Shown piece by piece: positions 15,872-33,913 of a stretch of 64,000 nt of DNA. The notes below the pieces were generated by a model. That model ran no database searches. It was not told the origin of the DNA and was given only the letters and a program-made list of their open reading frames with translations. The translations under genes and the position numbers were made by a program. This stretch comes from Longimicrobium sp. (GTDB lineage Bacteria; Gemmatimonadota; Gemmatimonadetes; Longimicrobiales; Longimicrobiaceae): assembly GCF_035474595.1 (NCBI RefSeq), contig NZ_DATIND010000107.1, forward strand, positions 62,001 to 126,000, read 5' to 3'. The first letter of the stretch is position 1. The number at the start of each line of letters is the position of its first letter.

Positions 15872-16195
15872 ATGCGGAGCAAACTGAAGCTCGACGTGGA
15901 ACAGCTGCAGGTGGAGTCGTTTTCCGTGCAGGAGGCGCGGGTGGAGCGCGGAACGGTGCACGGCCTGATGAGCGACGCGCCGCAGGTCTGCATCAGCGAG
16001 GACCCCTCGTGCAACGCGCAGCCCAGCTGCGACGGCACCTGCGCCAGCTGCAACGGGAGCTGCGGGTACAGCTGCGACTACACCTGCGGGTACACCTGCG
16101 AATACAGTTGCGGGTGGACGTGCGGCTCCACCTGTGAGCTCAGCTGCCGCTGCGGCAACACCCTGACCGGCGATCACGACGACGTGACCTTCTAG
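15872..16195 (+). CDS. Leader-bearing Cys-rich peptide 1 (orphan RiPP/lanthipeptide-like precursor)
   Basis: 107 residues. Leader-like N-terminus MRSKLKLDVEQLQVESF, then nine residues and GTVHG; no cysteine in the first 39 residues. The rest has 14 cysteines, 12 of them preceded by Ser or Thr. From about residue 60 they fall into a four-residue ladder (SCGYSCDYTCGYTCEYSC, then GWTCGSTCELSC). The leader pattern KLxLxxxxLxVxSF...GTV is shared with the genes at 20241, 23200, 33608 and 52617. Ser/Thr and Cys alternation fits lanthionine formation, but a disulfide- or metal-rich peptide is also possible. From memory such leaders occur on pinensin-type lanthipeptide genes; not checked. Start ATG 15872, with GGAG 12 bases upstream. 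Single gene, own terminator, no modifying enzyme within the window next to it. Confidence 0.75.
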   Translation: MRSKLKLDVEQLQVESFSVQEARVERGTVHGLMSDAPQVCISEDPSCNAQPSCDGTCASCNGSCGYSCDYTCGYTCEYSCGWTCGSTCELSCRCGNTLTGDHDDVTF

Positions 16196-18861: not shown

Positions 18862-18878
18862 GGCAAACGCGTGGAAGA

Positions 18879-19106
18879 GACGTCATCCTGAGGCCGGCCA
18901 CTCTGGACGTGCGGCATGCGCGAGCGTCGGCAGGCCGAAGGATCGATAGCCGAGGCCGGCACTGCGCTTCGGAGACGCTGCAGCGGTGTCACCGTCATGA
19001 GCAGCGGCGCGTCCGAAGCCGACATGCGAGGCAGGCTATGGATCCTTCGGCCTGCAAGCGATGGCGCGGAAGGCCAGGTCGGCGTGGCCGGCCTCAGGAT
19101 GACGTC
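18879..19106. repeat. A-family repeat, inverted doublet
   Basis: Termini GACGTCATCCTGAGGCCGGC and its reverse complement, the inner pair AGGCCGAAGGATCGATAGCC and GGCTATGGATCCTTCGGCCT, and a variable centre of about 80 bases. It fills most of 18862-19172. Confidence 0.85.
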
Positions 19107-19172
19107 TCTCCAGGTGTGACGGGATAAAAGCTGTCCGAACATCTTGAACAACGAACCTGTCAGGAGATACAG

Positions 19173-20057
19173 ATGGCCGAGATCAAGCGCGTGGGCGTGC
19201 TGGGGTGCGGACTGATGGGGAGCGGGATCGCGCAGGTGTGCGCCGCCGCCGGCTACGAGACCATCGTCCGCGAGGTCAGCGACGAGGTGGTGCAGAAGGG
19301 GATCGGCGGCATCGGCAGGCAGCTGGGCAAGCAGGTGGAGAAGGGGAAGCTCGCCGCCGAAGACCGCGACGCGCTGCTCGGCCGCCTGCGCGGCACCTCG
19401 AACCTGGAGGACCTGAAGGACTGCGACATCGTCATCGAGGCGATCGTCGAGAACCTGGACCTGAAGAACGAGATCTGGCGCACGCTGGACGGCCTGTGCC
19501 CGGCGCACACCATCTTCGCGTCGAACACCTCGTCGCTCACCATCGCCGACATGGCGGCGGCCACCAAGCGGCCGGAGCGCATGGTGGGGCTGCACTTCTT
19601 CAACCCCGTGCCGGTGATGAAGCTGGTGGAGGTGGTGAAGACCATCGCCACCGACGCCGCGGTGTTCCAGACCGCGTTCGACTTCGCGAAGTCGCTGGGG
19701 AAGGAGCCCATCGTCTGCAAGGACAACTCGGGCTTCGTGGTGAACCTGCTGCTGGTGCCGTACATGATGGACGCCATCCGCGCGCTCTCGGAGGGCGTGG
19801 CCAGCATCGAGGACATCGACAAGGGGATGCGGCTGGGCACCGGCTACCCGATGGGCCCGTTCGTGCTCTCGGACTTCGTCGGCCTCGACACGCTGGACAA
19901 GATCGGCGACATCATGTTCAACGAGTACAAGGAGAAGCGCTACGCCTCGCCGCCGCTGCTGAAGCGGATGGTCAGCCTGGGCTACTACGGCCGCAAGAGC
20001 GGCAAGGGCTTCTACGACTACTCGGGCGACGAGCCGAAGCCGATGCCGCTGGTGTGA
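19173..20057 (+). CDS. 3-hydroxybutyryl-CoA dehydrogenase
   Basis: 294 residues. Interconverts 3-hydroxyacyl-CoA and 3-ketoacyl-CoA with NAD(P). Rossmann fingerprint VGVLGCGLMGSGIAQVCAAAG at the N-terminus. Then DCDIVIEAIVENLDLK, ASNTSSLTIADMA (catalytic Ser region), VGLHFFNPVPVMKLVEVV (catalytic His), VCKDNSGFVVNLLLVPYM and GTGYPMGPFVLSDFVGLDTL (Asn/Asp helix). Single-domain form, as in PaaH/Hbd. AGGAGA lies just before ATG 19173. With the thiolase upstream it forms the two-enzyme core of a butyrate, PHB or short-chain beta-oxidation step, though a repeat and two unrelated genes separate them. Confidence 0.93.
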   Translation: MAEIKRVGVLGCGLMGSGIAQVCAAAGYETIVREVSDEVVQKGIGGIGRQLGKQVEKGKLAAEDRDALLGRLRGTSNLEDLKDCDIVIEAIVENLDLKNEIWRTLDGLCPAHTIFASNTSSLTIADMAAATKRPERMVGLHFFNPVPVMKLVEVVKTIATDAAVFQTAFDFAKSLGKEPIVCKDNSGFVVNLLLVPYMMDAIRALSEGVASIEDIDKGMRLGTGYPMGPFVLSDFVGLDTLDKIGDIMFNEYKEKRYASPPLLKRMVSLGYYGRKSGKGFYDYSGDEPKPMPLV

Positions 20058-20190: not shown

Positions 20191-20240
20191 CAATTCCGGT
20201 CGGGGGACCGGACGGGGAAATCTTCAAGGGGAGGGTGATC

Positions 20241-20411
20241 ATGAAGAAGCTGACGCTGAACCTCGAGACCTTGGACGTGCAGAGCTTCGAGCCCGTCGGC
20301 GCGCGGCAGCAGGCCGGGGGAACCGTATTCGCGGCGGCCTCGCCCTCGAACACCTCACCGGCATGCTGCTACACCTTCGGCTGCGGCGATTCGATCCAGC
20401 AGGCCTGCTGA
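20241..20411 (+). CDS. Leader-bearing Cys peptide 2 (orphan RiPP-like precursor)
   Basis: 56 residues. Leader-like part MKKLTLNLETLDVQSFEPV with GGTV ten residues after SF, then a short linker rich in Ala/Ser/Pro/Thr. The core is PACCYTFGCGDSIQQAC, with four cysteines, all in the last 15 residues. The ending closely parallels peptide 3 (C-[YI]-T-F-[GT]-C-G-D-S-x5-C), so these two form a subgroup. GGGGAGGGTGATC before ATG 20241 is a strong ribosome site. A perfect 28-base palindrome follows as terminator. No processing enzyme adjacent. No signal peptide other than the leader. Confidence 0.75.
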   Translation: MKKLTLNLETLDVQSFEPVGARQQAGGTVFAAASPSNTSPACCYTFGCGDSIQQAC

Positions 20412-21097: not shown

Positions 21098-21142
21098 TAC
21101 CGGATCTGGCTATCATCTGTGCATTACAATCGCACAGAGAGA

Positions 21143-21226
21143 GACGTCATCCTGAGGCCGACCACACCGTCGTTGCCCCTGCACGAGCGATTGCAGGCCG
21201 AAGGATCTATAGGCAAGGTCGCACGT
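21143..21226. repeat. A-family repeat, half element
   Basis: GACGTCATCCTGAGGCCGAC terminus plus the inner GCAGGCCGAAGGATCTATAGG and GCACGTG end, without the inverted second half. Shows that the half is the mobile or basic unit. Confidence 0.75.
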
Positions 21227-23140: not shown

Positions 23141-23199
23141 TCCACTCGCCTCGTCGGAGGCGGAGAAGGAGCGGGAGACCAGCAACGCGGAAGGCGATG

Positions 23200-23376
23200 A
23201 TGAAGAAGCTGAGGCTGGAACTGGAGCGGCTCGACGTGCAGAGCTTCGATCTCGTGGATGGGCGCCAGCAGACGCAGGGAACGGTGCTCGGGGCGGACGC
23301 CGCGATGACGCTGCCGGAGTACTGCATCACCTTCACCTGCGGCGACTCGCGAATCCGGCCCTGCCTGGAGGATTGA
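23200..23376 (+). CDS. Leader-bearing Cys peptide 3 (orphan RiPP-like precursor)
   Basis: 58 residues (ATG 23197 would add one Met). MKKLRLELERLDVQSFDLV, then GRQQTQGTVLG (GTV ten residues after SF), then ADAAMTLPEYCITFTCGDSR and a last Cys before LED. Three cysteines, all C-terminal, two in C-ITFT-C. Same subgroup as peptide 2: 'LDVQSF', 'GRQQ/ARQQ', and the C-x-T-F-x-C-G-D-S core are shared. AAGGCGATG before the start. Followed by a hairpin; single gene. Confidence 0.75.
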   Translation: MKKLRLELERLDVQSFDLVDGRQQTQGTVLGADAAMTLPEYCITFTCGDSRIRPCLED

Positions 23377-33607: not shown

Positions 33608-33913
33608 ATGCCGGGCAAGCTGAAGCTGAACCTGGAGCAATTGACGGTGGACTCGTTCGACACGTCGGCGACGAAGACGGAGAAGGGGACGGTGTTCGGC
33701 GAGCAGGTCACCGTTCCTACTCGCCCGGGCGACCCCACGTGCGAAGGGTCGTGCAACGGCTCGTGCGACACCGGCCCTTGTGTCTCGTATTGCGCAAGCT
33801 GCAACAACACCTGCGACGGGTACACCTGCGACGGGCGCTGGAGTGACTGTACGTGCGGATACATCTGCGGGTACACCGCCAACTTTACCAATTGCAACGA
33901 GATCTGCATCTGA
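33608..33913 (+). CDS. Leader-bearing Cys-rich peptide 4 (orphan RiPP-like precursor)
   Basis: 101 residues. Leader MPGKLKLNLEQLTVDSFDTS with GTV nine residues after SF. The core has 13 cysteines, seven preceded by Ser or Thr, in runs such as PTCEGSCNGSCDTGPC, YCASCNNTCDGYTC and DCTCGYICGYTANFTN. It is the closest relative of peptide 1 (long, Tyr/Gly spaced cysteines) but with a looser spacing. GGAGGACGCC precedes ATG 33608. A strong hairpin follows the stop. The next gene is an unrelated flavoprotein; no modifying enzyme is adjacent. Confidence 0.75.
   Translation: MPGKLKLNLEQLTVDSFDTSATKTEKGTVFGEQVTVPTRPGDPTCEGSCNGSCDTGPCVSYCASCNNTCDGYTCDGRWSDCTCGYICGYTANFTNCNEICI

Follow-up and report, generated by a model that had tools for sequence, protein, structure and literature searches.

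The ladder of [Ser/Thr]-Cys-x-x units encoded by one open reading frame of the Longimicrobium sp. window (the whole stretch of DNA that was analysed, 64,000 nucleotides) is a genuine, non-chance feature, and this ORF probably specifies the precursor of a class I lanthipeptide modified by a split-LanB (pinensin-type) system that is encoded elsewhere in the genome. In the pathway predicted from the sequences, the enzymes would bind a conserved leader, probably aided by an RRE-like domain that LanC carries; LanB_N would glutamylate Ser/Thr residues of the core and LanB_C would eliminate glutamate to give Dha/Dhb; Cys thiols would be added by LanC; the Ser/Thr of each rung (i) would be joined to the Cys one rung further on (i+5), making approximately eight overlapping rings in the ladder and up to 14 rings in the core; and the leader would be cut off and the peptide exported by an ABC/HlyD pair. 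Ladders grow or shrink by entire rungs. The finished product is most likely a polycyclic peptide that is secreted, resists proteases and interferes with neighbours, its role in interference being the least certain part of this prediction.

Table 1. Precursor genes of the window and the parts of the ladder precursor (positions are those of the window)
Feature	Position	Strand	Basis
Ladder precursor gene, 107 aa	15872..16195	+	ORF translation (ATG at 15872, stop ending at 16195); ribosome-binding site; leader match E=2.7e-13
Leader region KLKLDVEQLQVESFSVQEARVERGTVHG	15881..15964	+	Alignment of 54 paralogue leaders; at least 150 matches in its own genome
Cys-rich core, 76 aa, 14 Cys	15965..16192	+	Translation; shuffles; Ser/Thr-Cys pairing
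Nine-rung [Ser/Thr]-Cys-x-x ladder, aa 59-92	16046..16147	+	Translation; shuffles
Second precursor, same leader, 56 aa	20241..20411	+	Starts within 108-nt direct repeat
Third precursor, same leader, 58 aa	23200..23376	+	Translation; leader; 108-nt direct repeat
Fourth precursor, 101 aa, with a degenerate ladder and kinship to ladder peptides from other species	33608..33913	+	Leader E=7.7e-10
Fifth precursor, 84 aa	52617..52871	+	Leader E=4.6e-9

A GGAG ribosome-binding site lies immediately 5' of the ATG of the ladder ORF, and the encoded peptide has Cys at residues 40, 47, 53, 57, 60, 64, 68, 72, 76, 80, 84, 88, 92 and 94. An earlier note made from the sequence alone had placed ten Cys in exact four-residue register; nine of them (aa 60-92, eight intervals) are so spaced, and the last Cys (94) sits two residues further. 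The note's remark that each ladder Cys follows Ser or Thr, usually with an aromatic residue before the rung, agrees with the translation: Ser/Thr directly precedes all nine ladder Cys, and Tyr or Trp occupies Cys-2 in five of the nine rungs. Among 200,000 shuffles of the 76-aa core, none contained a run of nine Cys, and the longest runs were eight for any Cys and four for Ser/Thr-Cys. The codons vary from rung to rung as had been noted (AGC/AGT/ACC/ACG for Ser/Thr and TGC/TGT for Cys), and neighbouring 12-nt units have 5-10 of 12 bases in common. A Pfam search with the ladder peptide gave no match, and its predicted structure showed no fold (pLDDT 44.8), a result to be expected because the shape would come from thioethers, which the method does not model.

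The likely connectivity of the rings can be estimated from the positions of Ser/Thr relative to Cys in the cores, with Cys positions fixed and the remaining residues shuffled. Ser/Thr is in excess at Cys-1 (z 22) and Cys-5 (z 19), and in a joint logistic model the effects on Ser/Thr persist for Cys at +1, +5 and -3. In the 55 cores that have no four-spaced pair of Cys the +5 effect remains (z 9.0), and the spacing pattern is absent from 161 ordinary proteins encoded at precursor loci. Two-rung ladders that retain one Ser/Thr have kept it on the first rung alone in 32 cases and on the second alone in 6 (p 2.4e-5), and in longer ladders Ser/Thr tends to be missing from the last rung; if each bonds to the Cys one rung further on, the first Ser/Thr should be needed and the last dispensable. 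When every Cys is matched to a Ser/Thr of its own, 3-6 residues upstream, partners are available for 83% of Cys, compared to 58% after shuffling (z 22); pairing at exactly five residues is enriched in the forward direction (z 18) and not in reverse; and all 14 Cys of the ladder peptide can be paired with distinct upstream Ser/Thr residues 4-7 positions away. The best reading of these spacings is that the ladder would become about eight thioether rings in series, each spanning i to i+5 and overlapping the next. Thus, the rings along a rod that the earlier note imagined are kept, and their i,i+4 geometry gives way to a linkage from Ser/Thr(i) to Cys(i+5), favoured by the statistics, in which consecutive rings overlap by two residues.

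Beyond what the earlier note described are a leader, a family of at least 150 paralogues and a split LanB/LanC system. The N-terminus of the ladder peptide (KLKLDVEQLQVESF...GTVHG) belongs to a leader common to the precursor family, for which an alignment of 54 paralogue leaders gives the consensus KLxLxxDxLxVESFxT..GTVxG with K1, L2, L4, L9, F14, G24 and T25 invariant; this leader together with a Ser/Thr/Cys-rich core is the composition of a class I precursor. The model built from these 54 leaders, taken from the window's genome alone (the genomes are drafts), finds at least 150 matches in that genome, all with E<=1.6e-5, and the whole ladder peptide as query finds 101 at E<=10. The precursors are scattered over many contigs, singly or as small tandem groups, and five of them lie inside the window (Table 1). 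A ribosome-binding site precedes 71 of 77 precursors, compared to 13 with shuffled upstream DNA. The cores are highly divergent yet rich in Cys (15.6% in 162 non-redundant cores). In the open-access papers searched for lanthipeptides of Gemmatimonadota or Longimicrobiaceae no account of this precursor family was found; what they report are predicted clusters that resemble no known compound.

Several repeats accompany the precursor genes. The two short precursors of the window are paralogues approximately 3 kb apart that share a 108-nt direct repeat (20230-20337 and 23189-23296, 75% identical) spanning their starts. Tandem groups of at least three precursors with divergent cores occur at L109, L052, L076, L080 and L039, and such groups are products of local duplication of precursor genes. 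A dispersed, REP-like palindromic intergenic repeat is found at 18876-19119 and 21130-21226 of the window, with 76-nt arms that are 78% complementary and more copies approximately 2 kb away. The heptamer CACCTGC was considered as a shared upstream DNA motif and rejected, because most of its occurrences fall in coding sequence, either as Thr-Cys codons of the tandem precursor just upstream or in other genes.

The distribution of the leader among genomes coincides with that of LanB. Leader matches were found in 10 of 61 related genomes (G000, G001, G002, G006, G007, G008, G009, G014, G015 and G020), with a marginal eleventh in G056 (E 0.0078), and LanB (PF04738) exceeds its cut-off in exactly these ten of the 61, with one match below the cut-off in G027. 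If the genomes were independent, the chance of a perfect overlap of ten with ten would be 1.1e-11 for the 61 genomes and 2.8e-6 within the family, and the true probability is less extreme because the genomes are kin. LanC-like genes are more widespread (21 of 61 genomes) and were ruled out as a tracker of the leader, which LanC does not follow because other LanC-like genes also give matches. A survey of 395 genomes of the phylum added only two carriers of the leader (G192 and G194, one match each), both with LanB on the same contig, approximately 1.5 and 3.3 kb away. The sole precursor of G006 lies approximately 1 kb from LanB. It also has a ladder, with a period of three (13 Cys exactly three apart, rich in Ser/Thr; L190 at approximately 4295 on the minus strand, G006:C30 at approximately 19000-19235). 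Scanning GTDB with the ladder subfamily gave no confirmed relative, and scanning with LanB matched only two MAGs; the ladder types taken together vary too much for their alignment to be used in scanning.

The predicted machinery is illustrated by G014, where a cluster encodes LanB_N (1106 aa), LanB_C on an ORF of its own (327 aa, PF14028, TIGR03891) and LanC (673 aa). The glutamylation and elimination domains of a class I LanB are both present on split, adjacent ORFs (PF04738 E 2.5e-46; PF14028 E 1.5e-45), and the separate cyclase LanC (PF05147), which among NCBIfam models is matched best by the cyclase part of LanM, adjoins LanB in G014, in G008 and on contig C23 of the window's own genome. 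No LanB or LanC was seen close to the ladder gene; the LanB and LanC matches of its genome are on other contigs, those to PF04738 being on C4 and C23, both above the cut-off. Each of these contigs ends within LanB, and the ends overlap in LanB coordinates and are not identical; therefore, the genome has either one or two clusters. Near LanB in sister genomes are an ABC exporter without a peptidase domain and its HlyD partner. In G009, a gene close to HlyD in the LanB cluster (L167:1015-1836, minus strand) encodes a subtilase resembling QhpE, and this subtilase is a candidate leader protease because the ABC exporter shows no peptidase domain.

In genomes with many precursors, LanC has a conserved C-terminal stretch of approximately 230 aa (L170:1218-1916, with homologues in L144, L160, L045, L195, L171 and L167). 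An AlphaFold2 model of this extra domain (pLDDT 83.8) has the PqqD-like winged fold of an RRE, and Foldseek matches it to TglI of TglHI (E 1.8e-5), PqqD (probability 1.00), NGO1945 and the RRE of TbiB1 with bound leader (TMt 0.73-0.75); because of these matches the domain is probably a leader-binding RRE. It resembles the RRE domains of TglI, PqqD and TbiB1 in predicted fold and differs in its predicted position at the C-terminus of a LanC cyclase. To our knowledge, no LanC-RRE fusion has been described. The LanC open frame of G006, which has one precursor, is 426 aa, too short for the extra domain, and the modelled fusion may be tied to genomes with many substrates.

The earlier note proposed that homologues be compared for changes of ladder length by whole units, and this is what the ladder subfamily displays: its members have 10 rungs (G001), 8-9 (G009), 7 (three paralogues in G009), 6 and 5 (G002) or 4 (G001), all in the same register and with the flank GEQCTC..CPGCPTC in small variations. 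The outcome by which the note would have called the ladder coincidental, sequence conserved and four-residue register lost, was not seen. In two groups of orthologues the Cys columns are invariant (11 of 11 and 16 of 16) and rung Ser/Thr positions remain Ser or Thr (9 of 9 and 13 of 13) with Ser-Thr swaps, compared to 18 of 42 and 27 of 38 invariant among the other columns. The ladder gene itself is flanked by the genes for an FtsH-type protease and a thiolase, and leader peptides are absent from the equivalent site in all nine members of the genus examined, including G008, in which the thiolase at that site is 90% identical; therefore, the ladder gene either was gained at this site in its own lineage or has disappeared from every other member. 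Because of this absence, it has no syntenic orthologue that would show purifying selection.

Some of the same data can be read in other ways. An excess of Ser/Thr is also present at Cys+3 (partial z 9.6) and reverse spans of 3-6 are above shuffles, and therefore some reverse or nested rings are possible. That the same lanthipeptide system forms a different pattern throughout, either non-overlapping reverse Cys-x-x-Ser/Thr rings or nested rings (outer i to i+5, inner reversed), is unlikely but deserves weight: C94-G-N-T97 is compatible with Cys-x-x-Thr as well, whereas the second-rung Ser/Thr that such a pattern requires is the one lost in two-rung ladders, and neither reverse spans of 4-5 nor exact reverse spans of five are enriched. 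A secreted peptide rich in Cys, held together by disulfides or with the repeated metal site that the earlier note also suggested, would accord with the Cys content of the cores and with a regular spacing that could offer thiols to a metal, but it would leave unexplained the offsets of Ser/Thr, the interchange of Ser and Thr beside fixed Cys and the co-occurrence of the leader with LanB, and structure prediction finds no fold for it; this reading, including the note's repeated metal site, is very improbable.

Modification by an enzyme of the LanM or LanKC type instead of the LanB system is equally hard to credit. Three more LanC-like genes (C25, C136 and C87) have long open frames, and their identity as LanM or LanKC is putative; however, G003, G004 and G005 carry LanC-like genes with neither LanB nor leader, and lone leaders adjoin LanB. 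It is also improbable, if marginally less so, that local slippage of units produced the ladder as a by-product, in a precursor that is silent or in decay. Its lineage-specific insertion between the protease and thiolase genes would fit such an origin, but the ORF is intact, the ribosome-binding site is present, the leader is well conserved, and ladder peptides of several species keep the register of Cys and Ser/Thr while other residues change. The split-LanB pathway with i-to-i+5 rings thus remains the preferred explanation. The broader proposal, that a single class I synthetase, its LanC fused to an RRE, serves at least 150 scattered precursors within one cell and makes rods of up to approximately ten overlapping rings whose lengths evolve by four-residue rungs (three-residue in a relative), is about evenly balanced between right and wrong.

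Two adjacent rings of nisin, D and E, each span i to i+3, and the Thr next to the Cys of one begins the other; here about eight rings of i to i+5 would follow in series. The nisin pair has been described as intertwined (PMC4698656). The pinensins of Chitinophaga (class I lanthipeptides, NF038180) give the best leader match for most of the peptides tested, but the NF038180 cut-off of 24 bits is not reached (7.6 for the ladder peptide, 19.7 for the best of 13 tested). Pinensin has a split LanB, and the LanC proteins of pinensin and relatives are close to LanM domains (PMC7268733), both of which are found here; the differences are at least 150 scattered precursors, long Cys-rich ladder cores and a LanC with an extra RRE-like domain. 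Prochlorosins and synechococsins likewise have scattered precursors with a common leader and very different cores, and are made by one promiscuous class II synthetase (ProcM, SyncM) with up to 79 substrates per strain, the largest one-enzyme lanthipeptide substrate set found in the literature searched (PMC9872173). The system described here differs in having a class I split LanB/LanC instead of LanM, another leader, at least 150 precursors and long Cys-rich cores. It is not of the prochlorosin type (ProcM-group LanM with a Nif11 leader): its leader follows LanB and not LanC-like genes alone, and neither Pfam nor NCBIfam matches it to Nif11.

If the proposal is true, a class I system with approximately twice as many precursors, spread over the genome and gained or lost one at a time, would represent a second, independent way of diversifying peptides in trans, and the ladder would be a length-tunable, genetically encoded rod of fused thioether rings. 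With a single machine acting on many natural substrates whose spacings from Ser/Thr to Cys can be measured, a clean test of how rings are chosen would be possible.
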